Below are positions 1 through 13,632 of a DNA stretch of 64,000 nt, in pieces. Every line of letters starts with the position of its first letter. Position 1 is the stretch's first letter. The DNA is from Microcella sp. (GTDB lineage Bacteria; Actinomycetota; Actinomycetes; Actinomycetales; Microbacteriaceae), in the NCBI RefSeq assembly GCF_019739195.1, contig NZ_JAHHDS010000003.1, forward strand, positions 1,550,001 through 1,614,000. The letters are read 5' to 3'. A program made the translations under genes and the position numbers. The notes below the pieces were generated by a model that saw only the letters and a program-made list of their open reading frames with translations, had not been told where the DNA came from and did no database searches.

Positions 1-327
1 GGGGTCTTCGGCGAAGAAGAGGCGACCGGCAAGACGACGATCGGCGACCTGCGCGAGGGCAAGCGCACCGTCATGATCGCGTTCGCGTGCTCGACGCCCG
101 CGTGGGCCCGTTTGTGCGAGCTCATCGGCAAGCCAGACCTCTCGCTCGACGAAGCGAGCGAAGCGCGACTGCTGCTCATCGAGTGCGGCGCCCGCGCCTT
201 CGCCGAAGACCTCGCTCGCGGCTACGCCAACCGGGCTCTCGCACGGCTCGCCGAGCCGCACATCCCCTCCGCCCTGCGCGACGAGCTGCACCCCGTCGCC
301 GAGACCGTGCTGAAACGGGTGCGATGA
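1..327 (+). CDS. crtE: Geranylgeranyl diphosphate synthase, C-terminal part (cut by window edge)
   Basis: This is the last 108 codons of a trans-isoprenyl diphosphate synthase; the start and both aspartate-rich motifs lie outside the window. The visible part begins G-V-F-G and contains GKTTIGDLREGKRTVMIA, matching the C-terminal G-K-x-x-x-D-L-x-E-G-K-x-T block of this family. The rest is helical. The enzyme supplies geranylgeranyl diphosphate to the phytoene synthase encoded next. Its stop overlaps the crtB start by 4 nt (ATGA at 324-327), so it is the upstream member of the carotenoid operon. I assign GGPP rather than shorter-chain synthesis from context only; the symbol could also be idsA. 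Confidence 0.85.
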   Translation, partial: GVFGEEEATGKTTIGDLREGKRTVMIAFACSTPAWARLCELIGKPDLSLDEASEARLLLIECGARAFAEDLARGYANRALARLAEPHIPSALRDELHPVAETVLKRVR

Positions 328-1229
328 ACCGCCTCAGTCTCTACGACCGGGTTGCCGACGAAACCGCGTCGATGGTGATCCGCCGCTATTCGACCTCGTT
401 CGGTCTCGCCTCGAGCCTGCTCGACGCCCGCGTGCGCCAGCACGTCGAGAACATCTACGCGCTTGTGCGCGTCGCCGACGAGATCGTCGACGGCGGCGTC
501 ACCGACGCCGGCCTCGACAGCGTGCACGCCGCGCGTTACCTCAACGAGTTCGAGGCCGAGACCGAGGCCGCTATGCAGTCGGGCTACTCAACCAATCTCG
601 TCGTGCACGCTTTCGCCCGCACAGCGCGCGAAGTGGGGTTCGGCACCGAGCTCACCGAGCCCTTCTTCCACTCGATGCGCATGGATCTCACCGATACCGA
701 GCACGACCAGGCGAGCTTCGACCGCTACGTCTACGGCTCGGCCGAGGTCGTCGGGCTCATGTGCCTGCGGGCATTCGTTCAGGGGATGTCCATCGACGCA
801 GAGCAGGATGAGCGCCTGGTCACCGGAGCACGGGCACTGGGCGCGGCCTTCCAGAAGGTCAACTTCTTGCGCGACCTCGCGGCTGACTTCGAGACGCTCG
901 GGCGCAGCTACTTTCCCGGAATCCGCGTCGACTCGTTCACCGAAGAGGAGAAGCACCGCTTGCTCGACGACATCGACGCCGACCTGCGTACCTCTGCCGC
1001 GGTGATTCCCGAACTGCCCAAGGGCAGCCGCCGGGCTGTCGCCCTCGCGCAAGGCCTCTTCGCCGAGCTCTCTGTGCGACTGCGCAAGACCCCCGCGTCG
1101 CAGCTCGTGCGCGCGCGGGTGCGAGTGCCCGACCCCGTCAAGGCCCGCATCGCCCTCGGGGCGCTCGCCGGCCGCACTCCTCGACCGCGGCCCGCCGCGG
1201 CAACCCTTTCGATCGGAGCAGCATCATGA
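324..1229 (+). CDS. crtB: Phytoene synthase
   Basis: The 301-residue protein condenses two geranylgeranyl diphosphates to phytoene, the first committed carotenoid step. Both Mg-diphosphate-binding motifs are visible: D52-E-I-V-D56 and D184-L-A-A-D188 (within NFLRDLAADF). A YGSAEVVG segment at about 137-144 is also typical. Length is normal for actinobacterial CrtB. The ATG at 324 overlaps the crtE stop and the stop overlaps crtI (1226-1229), so translation is probably coupled. An upstream extension in the same frame is arginine-rich and overlaps crtE, so I rejected it. Product identity is well supported by motifs and by the flanking crt genes. Confidence 0.96.
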   Translation: MNRLSLYDRVADETASMVIRRYSTSFGLASSLLDARVRQHVENIYALVRVADEIVDGGVTDAGLDSVHAARYLNEFEAETEAAMQSGYSTNLVVHAFARTAREVGFGTELTEPFFHSMRMDLTDTEHDQASFDRYVYGSAEVVGLMCLRAFVQGMSIDAEQDERLVTGARALGAAFQKVNFLRDLAADFETLGRSYFPGIRVDSFTEEEKHRLLDDIDADLRTSAAVIPELPKGSRRAVALAQGLFAELSVRLRKTPASQLVRARVRVPDPVKARIALGALAGRTPRPRPAAATLSIGAAS

Positions 1230-2812
1230 GTCGCGTCGTCGTCATCGGTGGAGGCATCGCCGGCCTCGCGAGCGCAGCCCTGCTTGCTCGCGATGGTCAC
1301 CAGGTGACGCTCGTCGAGAAGCAGCCCGAGGTGGGTGGCAGGGCAGGGTCGTGGGAGAAAGACGGCTTCCGCTTCGACATGGGCCCCTCGTGGTACCTCA
1401 TGCCCGAGGTGTTCGACCACTTCTTCAAGTTGTGCGGCACGAGCGCAGCAGAGCAGCTCGAGCTCGTGCAGCTCGACCCGGGCTACCGCGTCATCACGCA
1501 GGGCTTCGACGAGCCGACCGACATCGCGGCCACGCGCGACGAGAACATCGCCCTGTTCGAGTCGATCGAGCCCGGCGCGGGTGCCAAGCTCGACAAGTAC
1601 CTCGACTCGGCACTCGACACCTACGACATGGCCAAGAAGCGCTTTCTCTACACGAGCTTCGCCTCTTTCGGCCCGCTACTGCGCGGCGACGTGCTCAAGC
1701 GCACGGGAAAGCTCGTCAAGATGCTGCTGCAGAGTCTCGACGACTACGTGGGCCGCCGCTTCAGCGACTTGCGCCTACGTCAGGTGCTCGGCTACCCCGC
1801 GGTGTTCCTCGGCTCGTCGCCGTTCTTGACCCCGAGCATGTACCACCTCATGTCGCACCTCGACCTGACCGACGGCGTGCTCTACCCGATGGGCGGCTTC
1901 ACGAAACTCATCGAGCGCGTCGCCGCGGTGACAGAGCAGCAGGGCGTGAGCATCCGCACCTCCTCGCCCGTCGCGCGCATCCTCGTCGACGAGACCACGA
2001 AGCGCACCACGGGTGTGGAGCTCGAGGGGGGCGAGGTCATCGAAGCCGACATTGTCGTGTCGGCGGCCGACCTGCACCACAGCGAGACTCAGTTGCTGCC
2101 CGAGGCGCTGCAGACCTATCCGCAGTCGTACTGGGACAAGAAGACCGCGGGGCCGAGCGCTCTGCTGCTCTACTTGGGCGTCGAGGGCGATCTGCCGCAG
2201 CTCGAGCACCACACGCTGCTCTTCACGGCCAACTGGCGCGAGAACTTCGAGGCCATCTTCGGCCCGCAGCCGAGCCTGCCCGACCCGGCGTCGCTCTACA
2301 TCTGCAAGCCGAGCGGCGTCGACCCTTCGGTCGCACCCGAGGGCCACGAGAACGTCTTCGTGCTCGTTCCGGCGCCCGCCGACCTCTCGTTTGGGCGCGG
2401 CGATGTCGACGGCGATGGCGACACTCCTCTCGAGGTGTACGCCGACCGCATCATCGCCCAAATCGCCGACTGGGCGAAGATTCCTGACCTCGCCGACCGC
2501 ATCGTCGTGCGCCGTAGCTACGGCCCCGGCAACTTCAATGCCGACCTCAACGCCTGGCGCGGCACGGCCCTCGGTCCGGCGCACATCCTCTCGCAGAGTG
2601 CCTTCTTTAGGGCCGGCAACATCTCGAAGAAGGTCAAAGGCCTCTACTACGCGGGCGGCTCGACGATTCCGGGAATCGGACTGCCGATGTGCCTCATCAG
2701 TGCCGAGGTGCTCGTCAAGCGCCTACGCGGCGACACGTCGACCGGCCCGCTACCCGAGCCTCTCGAGCGCACGGTGCCTGCCGAGCCCGTGACTGAATCC
2801 GCCACCGCATGA
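1226..2812 (+). CDS. crtI: Phytoene desaturase (CrtI type)
   Basis: The 528-residue FAD enzyme should dehydrogenate phytoene to lycopene at the membrane. The N-terminus carries the dinucleotide-binding loop GGGIAG (residues 8-13) followed by the E-K-x-x-x-x-G-G-R flavin motif. Near residue 474 the bacterial phytoene-dehydrogenase signature YYAGGSTIPGIGLPM is present. The last 25 residues are a low-complexity acidic/proline tail. It starts on an ATG overlapping the crtB stop and ends in an ATGA overlap with the next gene. The number of desaturations cannot be read from sequence; four (to lycopene) is inferred from the downstream lycopene elongase and cyclase genes. Confidence 0.96.
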   Translation: MSRVVVIGGGIAGLASAALLARDGHQVTLVEKQPEVGGRAGSWEKDGFRFDMGPSWYLMPEVFDHFFKLCGTSAAEQLELVQLDPGYRVITQGFDEPTDIAATRDENIALFESIEPGAGAKLDKYLDSALDTYDMAKKRFLYTSFASFGPLLRGDVLKRTGKLVKMLLQSLDDYVGRRFSDLRLRQVLGYPAVFLGSSPFLTPSMYHLMSHLDLTDGVLYPMGGFTKLIERVAAVTEQQGVSIRTSSPVARILVDETTKRTTGVELEGGEVIEADIVVSAADLHHSETQLLPEALQTYPQSYWDKKTAGPSALLLYLGVEGDLPQLEHHTLLFTANWRENFEAIFGPQPSLPDPASLYICKPSGVDPSVAPEGHENVFVLVPAPADLSFGRGDVDGDGDTPLEVYADRIIAQIADWAKIPDLADRIVVRRSYGPGNFNADLNAWRGTALGPAHILSQSAFFRAGNISKKVKGLYYAGGSTIPGIGLPMCLISAEVLVKRLRGDTSTGPLPEPLERTVPAEPVTESATA

Positions 2813-3198
2813 GCCTGAGCGTCGCGATGTCACCGATCAACTTCGCGTACCTCGCCGCGCTCGCCGTGGCGCTCACCGGCATGGTGCTGCTCGACCGCCG
2901 CTTCACGCTGTTCTTCTGGCGCGACGCACGCCGTGCCGCGATCGTGATCGTGACCGGCGTGGCCTTCTTCCTCATCTGGGATCTCGGCGGCATTCTGCTC
3001 GGCATCTTCTTTCGTGGGCAGACCGACTTCATGACAGGGCTTCTCATCGGGCCCGAGCTGCCGATCGAAGAGGTCTTCTTCCTCACGCTGCTCTGCTACA
3101 ACACGATGAACGCGTACACGGCGGCGGGCGACTGGCTCGACGGCCGGTGGGCGCGGCGAGCATCCACACCCTCGATCGAGGGAGGTCGCGAAGGATGA
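2809..3198 (+). CDS. crtYe: C50 carotenoid cyclase subunit, CrtYe-like
   Basis: A 129-residue protein with three predicted membrane helices (about 7-24, 41-62 and 78-92). It matches the heterodimeric lycopene-cyclase-domain family of actinobacteria. The family's proline/acidic signature appears as ELPIEEVFFL before the third helix. In C50 pathways two such small subunits together cyclise the ends of the elongated carotenoid. The C-terminal tail is charged and glycine-rich. The gene overlaps crtI and the following subunit by 4 nt on each side, which fits stoichiometric expression. Which of the pair is 'Ye' is assigned only by order in known operons. Confidence 0.85.
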   Translation: MSLSVAMSPINFAYLAALAVALTGMVLLDRRFTLFFWRDARRAAIVIVTGVAFFLIWDLGGILLGIFFRGQTDFMTGLLIGPELPIEEVFFLTLLCYNTMNAYTAAGDWLDGRWARRASTPSIEGGREG

Positions 3199-3512
3199 CC
3201 TACACCCTTCTCAACGTCGTCTTTCTGGCGATCGTAGCCCTCGTCGCGATCGCTGCCATCGTCGTGCGCCGGGCACCGCGCTGGCGCGCGGTGGGGCTCG
3301 CCGCCGTGCTGCTGCTCACCCTCACGGCCGTCTTCGACAACGTCATCATCGGCACGGGCCTCGTCGCGTACGACGACAGCCTCATCAGCGGGGTGCGCAT
3401 CGGGCTCGCTCCGATCGAAGACTTCGCCTACACGGTCGCCGCTCTCGTGCTGCTGCCCTCGGTGTGGGAGCTGCTGCGGCGAACGCCCGCGCGCCAGGAT
3501 AGTGAGTCGTGA
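3195..3512 (+). CDS. crtYf: C50 carotenoid cyclase subunit, CrtYf-like
   Basis: A 105-residue, three-helix membrane protein, the partner of the preceding subunit. It ends its second loop with the motif GLAPIEDFAYTVAALVLLP, equivalent to the P-I-E-E/D-F signature of lycopene cyclase subunits. I chose ATG 3195, which overlaps the upstream stop (ATGA) and follows GGAGG at 3181-3185; an in-frame ATG at 3147 lies inside the upstream gene and was rejected. The final GTGA (3509-3512) overlaps the prenyltransferase start. Ring type (beta, epsilon or gamma) cannot be deduced from sequence. Confidence 0.85.
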   Translation: MTYTLLNVVFLAIVALVAIAAIVVRRAPRWRAVGLAAVLLLTLTAVFDNVIIGTGLVAYDDSLISGVRIGLAPIEDFAYTVAALVLLPSVWELLRRTPARQDSES

Positions 3513-4372
3513 GGACCCTCGGTCAGCTGTTCATCAGTTCGCGCCCGCTGAGCTGGATCAACACGGCGTTCCCCTTCGCCGCCGCCTACCTGCTGACCAC
3601 GGGGCGCATCGATACGGCGTTCATCGTGGGCACGATCTACTTCCTCGTTCCGTACAACCTCGCGATGTACGGCATCAACGACGTCTTCGACTATGAGAGC
3701 GACCTGCGCAACCCGCGCAAGGGCGGCGTCGAGGGGGCACTGCTCGACCCGAGCATCCACCGCACGACGCTGTGGGCCGCGGTCGTCACCAACGTGCCGT
3801 TTCTCGTGGCGCTGGTGGCCCTCGGATCGCCGCTCTCGTGGGTCGTGCTCGCCGTGAGCGTCTTCGCGGTCATCGCCTACTCGGCCAAAGGCCTCCGGTT
3901 CAAAGAGAAGCCCTTTCTCGACTCGGTCACCTCGTCGACCCACTTCGTAAGCCCGGCCGTCTACGGCCTCGTGCTGGCGGGAGCGACCTTCACGCCCGCA
4001 CTGTGGCTCATTCTCGCTTCGTTCTTCTTGTGGGGCATCGCCTCGCACGCCTTCGGGGCCGTGCAAGACGTCATCGCCGATCGCGAGGGCGGGCTCGCCT
4101 CAATGGCGACAGTCATCGGGGCGCGTGCGACCGTGCGCCTGTCGGTCGTCGCCTATGTGCTCGCGGGGCTGCTGCTGCTCGGAACCGACTGGCCGGGGCC
4201 ACTCGCCGCGATCGCCGCCCTTCCTTACGTGGTGATCACGGCCCAGTTCTGGATGATCACCGACGAGACCGCCGAGTCGGCCAACCGCGGCTGGAAGCGC
4301 TTCTTGCTGCTCAACTTCGTGGCCGGCGCGATCGTCACGATGCTCATGATCTACTGGGCGATCAACCGCTGA
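3509..4372 (+). CDS. crtEb: Lycopene elongase / UbiA-type prenyltransferase
   Basis: A 287-residue UbiA-superfamily membrane prenyltransferase with about eight hydrophobic segments. Both aspartate motifs are present: N57-D58-V-F-D61-Y-E-S-D65 and D187-V-I-A-D191. The family member in Corynebacterium glutamicum adds C5 units to lycopene to give C50 flavuxanthin, and the position after the two cyclase subunits supports that role here, giving a decaprenoxanthin- or sarcinaxanthin-like end product. It starts on GTG 3509, overlapping the upstream stop. It is the last gene of the operon and its end overlaps a convergent small gene by 11 nt; no clear terminator is seen. Confidence 0.9.
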   Translation: MRTLGQLFISSRPLSWINTAFPFAAAYLLTTGRIDTAFIVGTIYFLVPYNLAMYGINDVFDYESDLRNPRKGGVEGALLDPSIHRTTLWAAVVTNVPFLVALVALGSPLSWVVLAVSVFAVIAYSAKGLRFKEKPFLDSVTSSTHFVSPAVYGLVLAGATFTPALWLILASFFLWGIASHAFGAVQDVIADREGGLASMATVIGARATVRLSVVAYVLAGLLLLGTDWPGPLAAIAALPYVVITAQFWMITDETAESANRGWKRFLLLNFVAGAIVTMLMIYWAINR

Positions 4373-4741: not shown

Positions 4742-6994
4742 GTGCCTCGTTCGAGGGGTACCGTCGAATGCATGGGGGGCTTGACTTTGACGACTTGGCC
4801 GGGCGAGGCTTATCCGCTGGGCGCGACCTTCGACGGCAGCGGCACCAACTTCGCACTGTTCAGCGAAGTGGCCGAGCGCGTCGAGCTGTGCTTGTTCGAT
4901 GACGATCGCGTCGAGACGAGGGTCGCCCTCATCGAGGTCGACGCCTTCGTCTGGCACGCCTACCTGCCGGGCGTGCAGCCGGGCCAGCGGTACGGCTTTC
5001 GCGTGCACGGGCCCTACGACCCCTCGACGGGTGACCGTTGCGCGGGCGAGAAGCTGCTGCTCGATCCCTACGCGAAGGCCGTGCACGGCGAGGTCGACTG
5101 GGATGAGTCGCTCTTCGCGTACCGCTTCGACGACCCGAGCGCGCGCAACACCGACGACTCGGCGGCGCACGCGATGCTTTCGGTCGTCATCAATCCCTAC
5201 TTCGATTGGGCAGGCGACCGGCCGCCGAACACTCCCTACAGCGAGAGCGTCATCTACGAGGCGCACGTGGTCGGCCTCACGCGCACGCACCCCGCGATTC
5301 CCGACGAGCTGCGCGGCACCTATGCGGCTGTCGCGCACCCGGCGATCATCGAGCACCTTCAGAAACTCGGCATCACCGCCCTGGAGCTCATGCCCGTGCA
5401 CCAGTTCGTGCACGACAAGCACCTCGTCGACCAGGGCCTGACCAACTACTGGGGCTACAACACCATCGGCTTTCTCGCGCCCCACAACGCGTACTCGGCG
5501 AGCGGTGATCGCGGCGAGCAGGTGCAAGAGTTCAAGAGCATGGTGCGCACGCTGCACGCGGCGGGCATCGAGGTCATTCTCGATGTGGTCTACAACCACA
5601 CGGCCGAGGGCAACCACCTGGGGCCGATGCTGTCACTCAAGGGCATCGACAATGCCGCCTACTACCGACTCGTCGACGACGACCCGCAGTACTACATGGA
5701 TTACACGGGCACGGGCAACAGCCTCAACGTGCGCCACCCGCACTCGCTGCAGTTGATCATGGATTCGCTGCGCTACTGGGTCACCGAGATGCACGTCGAC
5801 GGGTTTCGCTTCGACCTCGCGTCGGCGCTCGCCCGCGAGTTCTACGACGTCGACCGTCTGGCGGCGTTCTTCGACCTCGTTCATCAAGACCCCGTCGTGA
5901 GCCAGGTGAAGCTCATCGCCGAACCGTGGGATGTCGGCCCGGGCGGGTACCAGGTGGGCAACTTTCCGGCCCTGTGGACCGAGTGGAACGGCCGCTACCG
6001 CGACACCATGCGCGACTTCTGGCGTGGTGAGGAGGGCACGCTCGGCGAGTTCGCCGCGCGGCTCACCGGCTCGGCCGATCTCTACGAGAACTCGGGTCGT
6101 CGCCCCGTTGCCTCGATCAACTTCATCACGGCGCACGACGGCTTCACCCTGGCCGACCTCGTGTCGTACAACGAGAAGCACAACGAGGCCAACGGTGAAG
6201 GCAACGCCGACGGCGAATCGCACAACCGGTCATACAACATGGGCGCAGAAGGCCCAACCGACGACCCCGAGGTGCTCGCCGCTCGTTCGCGCCAAGTGCG
6301 CAACCTGCTGGCGACGCTGCTGCTCTCGCAGGGCGTGCCGATGATCGCCCACGGCGACGAGCTCGGTCGCACGCAGAAGGGCAACAACAACGTCTATGCG
6401 CACGACTCAGAGCTTTCGTGGATCGACTGGTCGACGGCCGACGCGGCGCTCATCGAGTTCGTCGCCTCGATCGTGCGGCTGCGGCGCGAGCATCCGGTCT
6501 TCCGGCGCACCCGATTCTTCACGGGGCGTCTCGTGCACCGCGGTGGCGGCGATTCGGTGGCGGACCTCGACTGGCTGCGCACCGACGGCAGTTCGATGGA
6601 TGAGGCAGACTGGGATGCCGGTTTCGGGCGCGTGGTCGGCGTCTTTCTGAACGGCCACGGCATTCGAGAGCGGGATGCTCGCGGCGAGCCCATCGTCGAC
6701 CGCTCGTTCGTCGTCTACGTGTCGGCGCACGACGAGTCGATCGAGGTGACGCTGCCAGGCGCGGCTTACGGCGAGCGCTGGGAGCGGCTCGTCGACACCG
6801 CGGGCATCGACGGCCCCGTGGTCGTCGACGCGGGGTCGAGCATGACGCTCGAGCCGCGCAGCCTCGTGGTGCTGCGTCAATGGATGGAGGCCGAGCCGAC
6901 GCTCGACGGCGCGGTGGCAGCCTCGCTGTCGGCCCCGTCGGGCACGACCGACGCCGAGCTCGGCAGCACGGCAGATTCGGGCAGCGCATCGTGA
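4742..6994 (+). CDS. glgX: Glycogen debranching enzyme (GlgX/TreX)
   Basis: A GH13 isoamylase-type enzyme of 750 residues that hydrolyses alpha-1,6 branches of glycogen, releasing linear maltodextrins for TreY. An N-terminal CBM48-like domain opens with W-P-G-x-A-Y-P-L-G-A. The four GH13 regions are intact: DVVYNH near 281, nucleophile D358 in GFRFD, acid/base E394 in AEPWD, and D466 in TAHDG. I list GTG 4742, preceded by GGGGGAGAA; ATG 4772 (MGGLTLTTWPG) is an equally reasonable start because homologues begin close to the W-P-G. The 3' end overlaps treY by 4 nt (GTGA). Confidence 0.93.
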   Translation: MPRSRGTVECMGGLTLTTWPGEAYPLGATFDGSGTNFALFSEVAERVELCLFDDDRVETRVALIEVDAFVWHAYLPGVQPGQRYGFRVHGPYDPSTGDRCAGEKLLLDPYAKAVHGEVDWDESLFAYRFDDPSARNTDDSAAHAMLSVVINPYFDWAGDRPPNTPYSESVIYEAHVVGLTRTHPAIPDELRGTYAAVAHPAIIEHLQKLGITALELMPVHQFVHDKHLVDQGLTNYWGYNTIGFLAPHNAYSASGDRGEQVQEFKSMVRTLHAAGIEVILDVVYNHTAEGNHLGPMLSLKGIDNAAYYRLVDDDPQYYMDYTGTGNSLNVRHPHSLQLIMDSLRYWVTEMHVDGFRFDLASALAREFYDVDRLAAFFDLVHQDPVVSQVKLIAEPWDVGPGGYQVGNFPALWTEWNGRYRDTMRDFWRGEEGTLGEFAARLTGSADLYENSGRRPVASINFITAHDGFTLADLVSYNEKHNEANGEGNADGESHNRSYNMGAEGPTDDPEVLAARSRQVRNLLATLLLSQGVPMIAHGDELGRTQKGNNNVYAHDSELSWIDWSTADAALIEFVASIVRLRREHPVFRRTRFFTGRLVHRGGGDSVADLDWLRTDGSSMDEADWDAGFGRVVGVFLNGHGIRERDARGEPIVDRSFVVYVSAHDESIEVTLPGAAYGERWERLVDTAGIDGPVVVDAGSSMTLEPRSLVVLRQWMEAEPTLDGAVAASLSAPSGTTDAELGSTADSGSAS

Positions 6995-9333
6995 CCGATG
7001 CACGCCTGCCGCTCTCGACCTACCGCCTGCAGGTCTCGAGCGAGTTCACTCTTGACGACGTCGCGGCGCAGGCCGACTATGTGCGCGCCCTCGGTGCTGA
7101 CTGGCTCTACCTCTCACCGCTGCTGCAGGCGACTCGCGGATCGACGCACGGTTACGACGTTGTCGACCACGGTGCGGTCGATGACGAGCGCGGGGGTGCC
7201 GAGGCACTCTCGCGGGCCGTCGTCGCCGCGCGAGAGCAGCGACTCGGAGTGCTCGTCGACATCGTGCCCAACCACGTCGGCGTCGCCGACCCGAGGCAGA
7301 ACTCGTGGTGGTGGCAGCTGCTGCGCACCGGCCAACACGGCCCGATGGTCGAGGCTTTCGATGTCGACTGGGCCTTCGCCGACGGGCGCATCCGCCTGCC
7401 GGTGCTCGGCGACGACCTGCCGCAGGTCATCGCGGCGGGCGAGGTCGAGTTGCTCCACGACGCCGTGCGGGTTCACGGCACCGACTATCCGCTCGCCGAG
7501 GGCAGCGCCGACGACGTGGTCGACCGCACGACAGCGGCACCCGCCGAGGTGCGCCGCGTGCTCGAACGTCAGCACTACGAGCTCGTGCACTGGCGCCGAG
7601 CGGATTCTGAGCTCAACTATCGGCGGTTCTTCGCCGTCACGACGCTCGCCGCACTTCGCGTCGAGGTGCCGTGGGTCATGCTCGAGAGTCATCGCGAGAT
7701 CGTGCGCTGGGTGACCGAGGGGCTCGTCGACGGCATTCGCGTCGACCACCCCGATGGCCTCGCTGACCCGGGCGCGTACCTCGACGCGCTCGCCGACCTC
7801 ACGAACCATGCACCCGTGTGGGTCGAGAAGATTCTCGAGGGCGACGAGCCGCTGCCGGGCCACTGGCAGACAGCCGGCACGACCGGCTACGACGCGCTCG
7901 CCTCCATCGATCGCGTGCTCGTCGATCCTGATGCCCGCGTGCCGCTCAGCCGGCTCGACGCCCGAGTGCGCGGAACCGAGTCGGTCACCAGCTGGTCAGA
8001 CCTCATCCGATCGACCAAGCGCCGCATCGCCGACACGATTCTGCGCAGCGAAGTGCTGCGGCTCGAGCGCGAGCTGCCGCACCCCGTCGAGGGCGCGGCC
8101 GACGCGCTCGCCGAGCTGCTGGCGTGCTTTCCGGTGTACCGCTCATACTTGCCGGTCGGGCTCGAGCACCTCGAGGCGGCGCTCGCCAACGCTCGCCGGT
8201 CGCGCCCCGAGCTCTCGGCCGCCTTCGACGCGCTCGCGACCGTGCTCGGTGATGCCACTCAGCCTGCCGCCCGCCGCTTTCAGCAGACGAGTGGCATGGT
8301 CATGGCGAAGGGCGTCGAAGACACCGCGTTCTACCGTTACTCGCGACTGGCCTCGCTCACCGAGGTCGGTGCCGACCCGGCCGAGTTCTCGATCGATGTC
8401 GATGAGTTCCACCGACGGCAGACCGTGCGGCAGGGCTCGTTTCCCGCGTCGCTCACCACGCTGTCGACGCACGACACCAAGCGCGGCGAAGACACCCGCG
8501 CCCGCATCCACGTGCTTGCCGAGCATCACGAACGCTGGGAGGCCGTGCTCGACGAGTTGCGCCGCCGAGCGCCGATCGGCGACGGGCCCTTCGAGAACAT
8601 CCTGTGGGAATCGATCGTCGGCGCCTGGCCGCTCTCGCGCGAGCGAGCGCATGCCTACGCCGAGAAGGCGTCGCGTGAGGCCGGCACCTCGACGACGTGG
8701 ACAGCGCCCGACACAGCTTTCGAAACACGGATGCACGCCGCGGTCGATGCCGCCTTCGACGACCCTGCCGTGCGCGCGCTTCTCGAGACGCTCGTCGACG
8801 ACGTCGCGGCGGCGGGCTGGTCGAACGGCCTGAGCGCCAAGCTGCTGCAGCTCACCGCGCCGGGAGTGCCCGACGTCTATCAGGGCAGCGAGCTGTGGGA
8901 GACGAGCCTCGTCGACCCCGACAACCGCCGCCCGGTCGACTTCGCACAGCGCCGGTCGATTCTCGCGCGCCTCGACGACGGCGAACTGCCGCCCATCGAC
9001 GCCGAGGGTGCGGCCAAGCTGCTCGTGACCAACCGCGCCCTGCGGGCCCGCCGCGATCGGCCCGAGCTCTTCACGCGCTACGCCCCGCTCTCGGTCGTGG
9101 GCCAAGCGGCCGATCACGCGATCGCCTTCGATCGCGGCGGCGCGGTGACGCTCGCCACCCGCTTGCCGGTCGGGCTTGAACGGCGTGGCGGCTGGCACGA
9201 CACTCTCGTCGTGCTGCCGCACCGCCCCGTCATCGATGTCATCACGGGCGCGCACTACGCCGGCGGCGAGCTGCCGCTCAGGGATGTGCTGCACAGGTAT
9301 CCCGTCGCCCTGCTGCTCGAGGAGCCATCGTGA
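6991..9333 (+). CDS. treY: Maltooligosyltrehalose synthase
   Basis: A 780-residue GH13 enzyme that turns the reducing-end alpha-1,4 bond of maltodextrins into an alpha,alpha-1,1 bond, making maltooligosyltrehalose. The N-terminus LPLSTYRLQ is a family hallmark. Catalytic residues: D252 in [10 protein letters not shown]279 in VEKILEG, D495 in [14 protein letters not shown], the last being diagnostic for TreY. GTG 6991 overlaps the glgX stop (GTGA 6991-6994) and the 3' end overlaps treZ the same way. Longer in-frame starts inside glgX encode low-complexity sequence and were rejected. Part of the TreX-TreY-TreZ route, a stress and compatible-solute pathway. Confidence 0.95.
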
Positions 9334-11162
9334 CTCACACCACTCACCACGTCGACGCGCGCGTCTGGGCGCCCCGGGCCATGAGCGTCGAGCTGCATCG
9401 CGAGCGCGAGGGCGAGACCCAACGGGTGCCGATGGTGCCCGACGGCGGCGGCTGGTTCGTCGCTCTGGCGGCGCTCGCCGCCGCCGACCGTTACGGCTTC
9501 GTGCTCGACGATGCGCAGCACCCCGTGCCCGATCCCCGCTCGCGGCGGCAGCCCGAGGGCGTGCATGCCCTGAGCGCGCTCGACGACCCGAGCGAGTTCT
9601 CGTGGAGCGACGACTCGTGGACAGGGCGCCAGCTCGCCGGCAGCGTGCTCTACGAACTGCACATCGGCACGTTCACGCCGCAGGGCACGTTCGATGCGGC
9701 GATCGCGCGGCTCGACCACCTCGTCGACCTCGGCGTCGACCTCATCGAGCTGCTGCCCGTCAACGGATTCAACGGCATCCACAACTGGGGCTACGACGGC
9801 GTGCTCTGGTACACCGTGCACGAGGGCTATGGCGGGCCCGAGGGCTACCGCCGCTTCGTCGACGCGTGCCACGCGCGCGGCCTCGGCGTCGTGCAAGACG
9901 TCGTCTACAACCACCTGGGGCCGAGCGGCAACTACCTGCCGCGGTTCGGCCCCTACCTGCATGAGGCGAGCGCAAACACGTGGGGCGATTCGGTCAACCT
10001 CGCCGAGCCCGAGGTGCGGCGTTTCGTGCTCGACAATCTCGCGATGTGGTTCGACGACTTCCACGTCGACGGCCTGCGGCTCGATGCCGTGCACGCTCTG
10101 GTCGACGACCCCGACGAGCACATTCTGCGCGACATGGCGATCGAGACGGATGCTCGCTCAGCGCACCTCGGGCGGCCCCTGTCGCTCATCGCCGAGAGCG
10201 ACCTCAACGACCCGCGGCTCATCCTGCCGCGCGAGGCGGGCGGCTACGGCCTCACCGCTCAGTGGAGCGACGACCACCATCACGCGATCCACACCGCCGT
10301 TTCGGGCGAGGCGGCGGGCTACTACGCCGACTTCGCGACGCGCGATGCTCTGCCCACGACCTCGATGCGCGGGTTCTTCCACGCCGGCACGTACTCGAGC
10401 TTTCGCGAACGCGAGCACGGGCATCCGATTCCCGTCGAGGTGCCCGCCTGGCGGTTCGTGACGTGCGCGCAGAACCACGACCAGATCGGCAACCGGGCCG
10501 CGGGTGATCGTCTCTCGGCGCTCGTCGATGTCGACCTGCTCGCGGTCACGGCCGTGTTGAACCTCACGAGCCCCTTCACGCCCATGCTCTTCATGGGCGA
10601 GGAGTGGGGCGCCTCGACTCCGTGGCAGTTCTTCACCTCGCACCCCGAGCCCGAGCTCGGGCGCGCGACTGCCGAAGGGCGTCTCGCCGAGTTCGTCAAG
10701 ATGGGGTGGGACGAGTCGGTCGTGCCGAACCCTCAAGACCCTGCCACCTTCGAGAGTTCGCGTCTCGACTGGACCGAGCTCGACGACGCGGGTCATGCGC
10801 GCCTGCTGGAGCTGCATCGCGAGCTCATCACCCTGCGGCGAACGACCCCCGAGCTGACCGACCCGAGCTTCGCCCACAGCTCGGCCGCCAGTGCTGGAGC
10901 CGACGCGGCCGCGACGCCCGAGTCGTTCCGCATGCTGCGGGGCCCTGGTACTCACGATGCGCGCGGCGGACTCGTCGCGGTGTGCGCGGCCTTCGCGCAC
11001 GACGCGGTGATGGAGTTCGCGCCGCCGACCGGCCTTCGTTCGTCTCCGCGTGCGCAGCTGCTGCTGTCGACGGCCGACGCTCGAGTGCACGTCGACGAGA
11101 CGACCGGAGTCGCGCAGCTCGAGCTGCCCGCCCGCTCGGCTGCCGTCGTGCGCCTGCGCTAG
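9330..11162 (+). CDS. treZ: Maltooligosyltrehalose trehalohydrolase
   Basis: A 610-residue GH13 enzyme that cleaves trehalose from maltooligosyltrehalose, the final step of the pathway. After an N-terminal beta-domain, the barrel carries DVVYNH, nucleophile D252 in [10 protein letters not shown], acid/base E289 in [11 protein letters not shown], and D384 in QNHDQIGNR. The E-S-D-x-N-D-P segment is typical of TreZ rather than of branching enzyme. GTG 9330 overlaps the treY stop. The stop TAG is interleaved with the stop of the convergent gene in one CTAG (11159-11162), so no spacer or terminator separates the two transcription units. Confidence 0.94.
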
Positions 11163-12491: not shown

Positions 12492-12518
12492 CGGGGCGAG
12501 CACATCGTGCCCACCCCG
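12492..12518 (-). terminator. Possible terminator after the histidine-rich gene
   Basis: Read on the minus strand, a hairpin with CGGGG/CCCCG arms and an inner GCAC/GTGC pairing lies about 20 nt after the stop of the 12538-12978 gene and is followed by CTTCTGTGT. The stem is interrupted and the T-tract is poor, so this is a moderate call. Confidence 0.4.
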
Positions 12519-12537: not shown

Positions 12538-12978
12538 TCAGCCAGCAGCCTCGGTCTTGCGCGCCGCCTTCTTGGCGGCCTTGCGCTCGGCCTTGCGTTC
12601 AGCGGTGCCGCCGTGCTCGCCGCAGTGGCCGTGACCACGACGGTGTCCACGGTGATGGCCGTGGCCGTGGCCGTGACCGTCACCGTGACCACGCCCGCGC
12701 CATCCGCCGGGGCCGCGCCCGGGCATGCCCTGGCTCTCATCCCAGCCCAGGTTTCGGGCCATGGTCTCGAGGGTCGCCATGGTCGTGGCGTAGTCCTCGT
12801 CGCTAATGCCTTCACGGGCGGTGGCGTCGAGGCCGCGGTAGTACTCGTGGGCCAGGGCGCGCTTGCGCCAGGCAGCGGCGCGCATCCAGCGGCCGGGGGT
12901 CATCGACGCGGCGTCGAACGCCTCGCGGTCGGTGGGCTCAGGGTTCGAGCCTTCTGACTTCTCAGATGAGTTATTCAT
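12538..12978 (-). CDS. Small histidine-rich, basic-tailed protein
   Basis: I do not recognise a family for this 146-residue protein. Residues 1-80 are acidic to neutral, with helices containing W31, W36, Y46-Y47 and a segment (GISDEDYATTMATLETMARNL) that resembles the C-terminal helix of MarR proteins. Residues about 95-124 are Gly/His/Arg-rich with an HGHGHGHH run and one Cys, a likely metal-binding stretch. The tail repeats A-E-R-K / A-A-K-K / A-A-R-K, like a DNA- or RNA-binding basic tail. ATG 12978 follows AAGGAGAC with 6 nt spacing. It is divergent from a MarR gene, with a 12-bp palindrome between. No signal peptide. Confidence 0.75.
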   Translation of the reverse strand: MNNSSEKSEGSNPEPTDREAFDAASMTPGRWMRAAAWRKRALAHEYYRGLDATAREGISDEDYATTMATLETMARNLGWDESQGMPGRGPGGWRGRGHGDGHGHGHGHHRGHRRGHGHCGEHGGTAERKAERKAAKKAARKTEAAG

Positions 12979-13001
12979 AGGGATGTCTCCTTCAGACAGT
13001 G

Positions 13002-13030
13002 TGTATGTCATATGACAACGAATGTCACAA
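13002..13030 (-). promoter_or_regulatory. Promoter with central palindromic operator (His-rich gene)
   Basis: On the minus strand, -35 TTGTGA (13030-13025), a 17-nt spacer and -10 CATACA (13007-13002). The perfect 12-bp palindrome TGTCATATGACA (13006-13017) occupies the spacer and touches the -10. A further TGTCA half-site lies at 13023-13027. On the plus strand the palindrome's right half can act as -35 ATGACA (13012-13017) with TATATT at 13035-13040, 17 nt apart. A MarR dimer bound here would block both directions. Confidence 0.6.
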
Positions 13031-13101
13031 TACATATATTCCCGGAGGGCGTCAACCGCCACGGTCGCCATCGAGCGCGCGATCGATGTACCGTGACATC
13101 T

Positions 13102-13632
13102 ATGGATGCTCCGCGCGATGATCTCGACCCGATCACCGCGATCGAGCGCGCCGTCAGCGAGCTGCGGCGTGCGGGCAGCCGGTCGCCGTGGAGCCGGCCG
13201 GCGGCAGACCAGAAGCACCGCGACGCGCATCAGCTCCATGACGGGCAGCACGGGCCGTTTGGGCGGAAGGGCCCGCGGCACGAGCATCCGTTCGCAAATA
13301 TGGCGCGCTACCGACTGCTCTCGACGCTCGACCGCGTGGGCGACGGTGCGAGCGTGAACGAGCTCGCCGCCGCGATCGGCGTCGATCAGCCGCGCGCGAG
13401 CCGCGTGGTCGCCGACTGCGTCGAGCGCGGTCTCGTCACGAAGCAGACCGACCTCGCGGATGCCCGCCGCAGCGTCATCGCCCTCACCGACGCCGGCCGG
13501 GCCGTGCTCGACGAGCGCCGCCGCGAACGCCGCGCCGCCGTCGAGCAGGCACTGCAGGGCTTCTCCGCCGACGAGCGCGCGCAGTTCGCCGAGATGCTCG
13601 CCCGCTTTGTCGCCGGTGGCCGCTCGACCTGA
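13102..13632 (+). CDS. MarR-family transcriptional regulator
   Basis: A 176-residue regulator with a MarR winged helix: recognition region VNELAAAIGVDQPRASRVVADCVERGLV followed by the D-A-R-R-S wing and the long C-terminal dimerisation helix. Unusually, residues about 35-65 before the first DNA-binding helix are His-rich (H-R-D-A-H-Q-L-H-D-G-Q-H, then R-H-E-H-P-F), echoing the divergent histidine-rich protein. ATG 13102 lies 7 nt after TACCGT (13089-13094), a leaderless arrangement; a second possible promoter (ATGACA/TATATT) lies farther upstream. It probably represses itself and the divergent gene through the palindrome at 13006-13017. Ligand unknown; metal is a guess. Confidence 0.88.
   Translation: MDAPRDDLDPITAIERAVSELRRAGSRSPWSRPAADQKHRDAHQLHDGQHGPFGRKGPRHEHPFANMARYRLLSTLDRVGDGASVNELAAAIGVDQPRASRVVADCVERGLVTKQTDLADARRSVIALTDAGRAVLDERRRERRAAVEQALQGFSADERAQFAEMLARFVAGGRST

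Follow-up and report, generated by a model that had tools for sequence, protein, structure and literature searches.

The DNA analysed here (the window) is a stretch of 64,000 nucleotides from a Microcella genome of 2.88 Mb in four contigs. It contains two divergent genes, named A and B in this study, with a palindrome in their shared spacer. The coordinates, strands and composition that a sequence-only reading had given for both genes were all correct, as was the perfect 12-bp palindrome that it had placed between them, TGTCATATGACA at 13006–13017. The features of the locus are as follows.

12492..12518, minus strand: terminator-like hairpin 3' of B, 12 pairs (consensus scan only)
12538..12978, minus strand: gene B, 146 amino acids, putative MarR-derived partner without the winged helix
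13006..13017, no strand: putative operator box 1, the perfect palindrome; its right half overlaps the -35-like ATGACA for A
13012..13040, plus strand: promoter-like site towards A, ATGACA-17-TATATT (consensus scan only)
13023..13034, no strand: putative operator box 2, TGTCACAATACA, its start 17 nt from that of box 1; shares bases with a -10-like hexamer for B
13027..13055, minus strand: promoter-like site towards B, TTGACG-17-TATTGT (consensus scan only)
13087..13098, no strand: putative operator box 3, TGTACCGTGACA, spanning -15 to -4 relative to the A start codon, with a TANNNT -10-like element inside
13102..13632, plus strand: gene A, 176 amino acids, MarR regulator with a His-containing linker preceding the winged helix

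By sequence look, crtI-, crtY- and crtEb-like genes occupy window positions 1–4372 and also occur in L218, a crtE-like gene straddles the left boundary of the window with idi just to its left, and window positions 4742–11162 resemble treX, treY and treZ. A convergent MFS gene adjoins A in the window and in 62 of 80 named loci (the best 80 of 287 A relatives). The MFS gene was rejected as a regulated partner, the adjacency being likely a shared gene order and a two-box operator facing the MFS gene being absent.

Gene A passed the Pfam cut-offs of both MarR_2 (46.5 bits, cut-off 27) and MarR (29.6 bits, cut-off 24.6), and it missed the AdcR/ZitR family model NCBIfam NF038251 (21.2 bits against a cut-off of 175). 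It had been described as a MarR protein with its own His cluster before the helix–turn–helix, and this description holds, with a richness that is only moderate: the best 30 residues of the window A linker contain nine Gly and His residues, compared with 23 in the window B. The window B consists of an N-terminal leader, two helices, a Gly/His-rich tail and a K/R-rich basic end and contains 11 His residues, in agreement with the His/Gly stretch and the lysine/arginine tail noted previously. In its structural model, with a mean pLDDT of only 60.8, the helices span residues 28–54 and 60–76, the Gly/His-rich tail at approximately residues 85–123 is of low confidence and a basic helix follows at residues 125–145. 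The K/R tail is also present in the short B of L128, L131 and L132, and is missing from the other 11 named aligned short B. The window B gave no match to Pfam MarR up to an E value of 1, and the short B of the window, L131 and L137 gave nothing above cut-off in Pfam or NCBIfam; the short forms are a set of unannotated proteins now pointed out by the A/B locus. A Foldseek search with the window B model returned no entries, which says little since this model is poor.

The origin of B becomes clearer from its long relatives, which comprise about 185–580 amino acids. The long B of Agromyces and Microbacterium consists of a MarR domain followed by a Gly/His-rich tail, and the long B of Leifsonia carries a large Gly/His-rich insert before the wing, with such inserts interrupting the recognition segment. 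Eight long B scanned against Pfam MarR gave sub-threshold matches only. The AF2 model of the long B of L189 has the six-helix MarR order, with pLDDT >90 over 110 residues, a tiny hairpin where the wing would be and a low-confidence tail. In structure comparison of long B by VIA, MarR entries dominate with Z up to 11.9 (helical bundles can commonly give values below about 13), and Foldseek alone gave E values of 1e-3 or weaker. The long B profile aligned residues 19–135 with the MarR protein 2fa5 (E 1.2e-4), with seven wing residues missing, and it matched the A profile with an E value of 3.9e-7. These profiles and models assign to the long B relatives a MarR fold with a retained but shortened winged helix, and the 'MarR-C-terminal-like helix' reported earlier for B was therefore right but understated, since the long relatives have the fold of the whole domain. 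In profile comparisons short B aligns with the C-terminal region of long B (E 6.1e-19) and gives only a weak direct match to A (E 0.012), so that homology of B to A is indicated with the short form joined via the long one. In short B the winged helix appears to have been lost, with helix 1 joined to the two C-terminal helices and the Gly/His tail predicted to be disordered, the window model being of low confidence. Having lost the winged helix, the window B is unlikely to bind DNA in a sequence-specific manner.

The pair is conserved. A species collection yielded 302 stretches with the A signature, of which 287 code for relatives; the 80 best were retained as named loci, which are the closest to A and not a random draw. 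The gene-neighbourhood search proposed in the sequence-only reading thus found a divergent B at 79 of these 80 best loci: 64 by profile (including the broken B of L129), eight by ORF reading and seven more in Brevibacterium; at the 80th locus, L188, the contig stops 53 nt short of the A match. The pair occurs in Agromyces, Leifsonia, Microbacterium, Plantibacter, Salinibacterium, Rhodoglobus, Brevibacterium and others. A record titled Planococcus (L205) bears an actinobacterial A/B locus, probably through contamination or mislabelling. Among 249 sampled genomes of the family, the window A was matched in 29, with second matches in G120 and G215 left out of the survey; the window genome and 19 others of these 29 have a divergent B (in G194 the pair is split over two contigs), in two (G060 and G148) the divergent B carries no His tail, and the remaining seven have weak A matches (L057–L063) that are without boxes and resemble other MarR genes.

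The palindrome TGTCATATGACA is the sole match, with up to two mismatches, in the 64 kb, but 0.39 matches are expected and 33 of 100 shuffles contained at least one, so that alone it is weak evidence. This evidence becomes strong with the enrichment of boxes in the relatives. The letters of box 1 are identical in the spacer of ten of the 14 named short-B loci. The box family TGTMNNNNKACA has three members in the window spacer and two more elsewhere in the 64 kb, a total of five against 1.49 expected, which was reached in two of 100 shuffles. Within the 600 nt 5' of the A match, a count independent of the choice of A start codon, 129 boxes were found over 79 loci (near-identical species included), with at least one in 73 of them, whereas the remaining 758 kb of these loci contain 13; the densities are 2.7 per kb near A and 0.017 per kb elsewhere. 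Spaced box pairs, counted with a looser pattern, occur near A in 46 of the 79 loci and number 0 elsewhere. An exact box is missing from six of the 79 loci and a spaced pair from 33, and the counts at L228 and L229 are unreliable because B was taken from an upstream start. The distance between two boxes is 18 nt in many relatives and 17 nt in the two-box short-B loci, as well as in three long-B Microbacterium loci (L184, L194 and L201). A box with seven or eight matches stands at -15 in 46 of the 80 loci, a figure that is circular since the box itself guided the choice of A start codons. Promoter-like sites facing A and B overlap the boxes (three found by consensus scan against 0.0 in shuffles), and the TANNNT element within box 3 makes a leaderless start of A possible. 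From the conservation of this operator, A is predicted to be a DNA-binding dimer that represses at the boxes.

The exact two-box operator has one site each in ten of the 20 genomes searched, always in the A/B spacer, and no match in the other ten; the reversed control matched in one of the 20. With exact two-box sites only in A/B spacers, the regulation exerted by A appears, to the extent that exact boxes reveal it, to be confined to its own pair. A wider regulon via the 17-nt pattern with two mismatches was rejected: 24 forward and 20 reversed-control matches were obtained in the 20 genomes, and with the control nearly equal the pattern is uninformative beyond the two spacers of the window genus. 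Single flanked boxes in the source genome (ten sites, compared with three for the control) were also rejected as a regulon, since two lie in the spacer, four in coding frames, two outside the ends of a transposase-like ORF and two near the start of contig C2. The segments G000:C3:2317977-2319246 and G000:C2:29-1298 share a box-like pair with the same letters and spacing; the former encloses a transposase-like ORF, and tRNA-Met adjoins the element.

Loss of the wing was followed over a tree of A (117 columns and 77 rows, with many forks unsure; L146, L168, L176 and L188 were left out). The wing is missing in 29 rows, which requires a minimum of four changes, two of them forced by well supported branches. 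Wingless B occurs in Brevibacterium, in the short-B group and at single Microbacterium and Leucobacter loci, and likewise in the sampled genomes G138 and G174. Wing presence was scored by text pattern; L136 was scored from the wrong stretch and by eye has a wing-like stretch, and the seven Brevibacterium rows scored wingless agree with a later reading of their B. Between residues 28 and 78, 26 columns are invariant across the 15 short-B sequences. The dN/dS of the B helices, in comparisons of the window with L128, L130, L131 and L132, is 0.00, 0.00, 0.08 and 0.04, respectively, and 0.345 with L133, with values of 0.21–0.44 for A. Four of the five comparisons show strong purifying selection on the short-B helices, and the invariant columns together with the low dN/dS make it unlikely that B is decaying. 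B is frameshifted in L071 (G178) and in L074 (G055), the latter of which entered alignment A2 and was left out of later B profiles, and the B of L129 is collapsed together with the spacer in an apparent assembly collapse; the defects of all three could be assembly errors or decay.

The position and conservation of the operator suggest that A is a MarR repressor that would act on TGTMNNNNKACA boxes over both promoters and thereby repress both A and B. With its shortened wing, interrupted recognition segment or lost winged helix, B would no longer bind the operator, and sequence and model indicate that it retains the MarR dimerisation helices. Through these helices B would most likely pair with A, giving A–B dimers with weak or altered operator binding, and derepression would then be self-limiting or gated by a signal. 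Our preferred reading, to which we give a little less than an even chance, is accordingly worded as a self-contained module in which A represses both genes and a DNA-binding-dead sister, B, may modulate A by pairing.

An alternative in which B acts alone, as a homodimeric MarR-fold scaffold or ligand binder that is merely the target gene of A, draws on the plain B-like proteins of the family. The window B was matched in 26 of the 249 genomes (13 with A, 12 with plain B-like proteins, plus G030), and plain B-like proteins are found in 53 of the 249 genomes at an E value of 1e-6, a few being tailed B again, and in 46 at 1.7e-11 or better. In 43 of these 46 genomes there is no A match at 1e-10, and one has another MarR only, without boxes. 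As plain B-like proteins are common without an A match, the B fold can function without A. Furthermore, 18 of 30 such loci that were read have, like the window, an MFS or PEP mutase-like neighbour (assigned by eye), and B may perhaps have begun as a solitary MarR-fold protein at its present site, with A and the operator arriving later. The alternative is nevertheless improbable in view of the ancestry that B shares with A (E 3.9e-7), of the Gly/His-rich segments, which nearly all tailed pairs assessed have in A as well as in B and which the two plain pairs lack altogether, and of the congeners G235 and G074. In these two genomes A, B and the boxes are jointly absent and the flanking MFS and PEP mutase genes are kept, with an ATPase-like gene between them where A and B would be; in G137, no PEP mutase match was found. 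In L138 (Salinibacterium metalliresistens) a short B adjoins a plain MarR-like B, approximately 0.5–0.95 kb upstream of A, and the two forms can therefore coexist in one genome.

The Gly/His-rich segments deserve separate consideration. Across the 70 pairs assessed, B has at least 11 Gly and His residues in its best 30, and the A linker has at least nine in 67 pairs, the exceptions being L133 (8), L185 (7) and L176 (linker not set). The His fractions of the A linker and of B correlate with a Spearman coefficient of 0.60 (67 of the 80 pairs, with no correction for kinship), which bears out the His-rich character proposed earlier as common to both proteins; no such correlation was seen for Phe (0.23, p 0.06) or for Gly (0.01). 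The composition count left out 13 of the 80 pairs, namely L146 and seven Brevibacterium loci (B start unset) and L129, L137, L158, L168 and L181 (B mis-set or broken). In the plain pairs of G060 and G148, where the pair and the boxes are present, the best 30 residues contain two Gly and His in A and three to five in B, with zero or one His in the A N-terminus and two in B. Since tailed pairs are rich in both partners and plain pairs in neither, the low-complexity segments look like an added, mostly shared layer, which is probably an accessory layer for sensing or assembly and, more speculatively, is perhaps sensitive to metal, pH or crowding.

The same segments underlie the proposal that A is a repressor responsive to metal or metal stress and B a His-rich metal buffer or chaperone switched on by A, with the MarR helices serving only to dimerise B. 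The 11 His of the window B, the His cluster of the window A, the correlated (kinship-uncorrected) His fractions and the HVHVHLH ends of several Agromyces B are consistent with this. We consider it rather unlikely, since in L131 and L132, which are close to the window, B is down to three His with Gly–Phe repeats instead, the pairs of G060 and G148 are without His-rich segments, A scores far below the AdcR cut-off and the exact two-box operator lies at no other gene, and hence at no metal transporter, in the 20 genomes (looser sites possible). Metal sensing by the pair is possible but weakened. Of the metal- or nucleic-acid-linked two-gene system originally suggested, the two genes as a system are upheld by the pair at 79 of 80 loci, the conserved boxes and the joint absence in two congeners, and metal as an essential feature is not, given the three His in L131 and L132 and the two pairs without a His-rich segment.

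MarR regulators are very common and are usually described as homodimers that answer small molecules. A B-type partner, with MarR pairing helices and no DNA grip, would, if true, be a protein-level control of this family, and the occurrence of the A/B arrangement with a shared control site in many actinobacteria points to an undescribed tuning of MarR regulators, in a system of two small genes and one short operator that is small enough for testing. An open-access literature search found no description of the A/B pair. ArmR is, to our knowledge, not MarR-derived. In the available part of PMC6224198, ArmR is a small protein, called a peptide, that makes the MarR repressor MexR leave DNA, whereas B keeps the MarR helices. 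The AdcR/ZitR zinc-dependent MarR repressors have the MarR fold and the metal idea in common with A, which is below their family cut-off. According to the available portion of PMC11655674, the homologues TrlR, CerN and FleT, which have no DNA-binding domain, control the full-length regulators TraR, CerM (LuxR family) and FleQ by contact. B resembles this type in being homologous to A and, in the window and other short forms, in missing the DNA-binding domain. In contrast to TrlR, CerN and FleT as portrayed there, the long B keep a shortened winged helix, and the A/B system has a MarR fold, divergent genes, a shared operator, Gly/His-rich segments and a presumed A–B contact. A bolder version of our preferred reading, which we regard as doubtful, is a MarR-fold 'inhibitor-of-DNA-binding' circuit in Actinobacteria, with a shared operator, pairing through MarR helices and matched, disordered Gly/His-rich segments that would co-assemble on metal, pH or crowding; the sister would have repeatedly discarded its winged helix because pairing and assembly are all that matters.

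The carotenoid genes of the window genome raise a further alternative, namely an isoprenoid/carotenoid switch in which A is a counterpart of CrtR that senses isoprenoid diphosphates and B helps to control the nearby crt and idi genes. CrtR of Corynebacterium glutamicum and its orthologues are divergent autorepressing MarR proteins with a central TTAA in the operator and crt or mmpL neighbours, and CrtR answers GGPP, as stated in the available part of PMC7432914; A is likewise actinobacterial, divergent and near carotenoid genes, and its autorepression is predicted. In addition to the crt genes at 1–4372, the crtE-like gene and idi near the pair in the window genome, L144, L157 and L160 have idi overlapping the B stop codon by 4 nt, and in L196, L198, L203, L155 and L190 it follows B within 58–190 nt. 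However, the three window boxes are without the central TTAA of CrtR sites, and a B-like partner is unmentioned for CrtR in the same part of that source (PMC7432914). No box was found in the 8.5 kb around idi and crtE of the source genome, and only 13 of the 80 loci searched contained idi, at 600–2705 nt from B in five of them, so that its proximity may be mere shared gene order. We therefore consider this switch highly improbable, and A was rejected as CrtR itself on the operator (no TTAA) and on the neighbours.

Several minor features of these loci were also observed. The idi start, located 4 nt inside the B end in L144, L157 and L160, recalls translationally coupled operons. An AFERGFDAGF-like motif lies at or near the B end in a set from Microbacterium and Brevibacterium (L162, L193, L207, L169, L070 and L075), within the insert in the case of L070, and also occurs in the short B of G138. 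The Agromyces B of L174, L197, L142 and L153 have an alternating VHVHVHLH-like stretch near their end.
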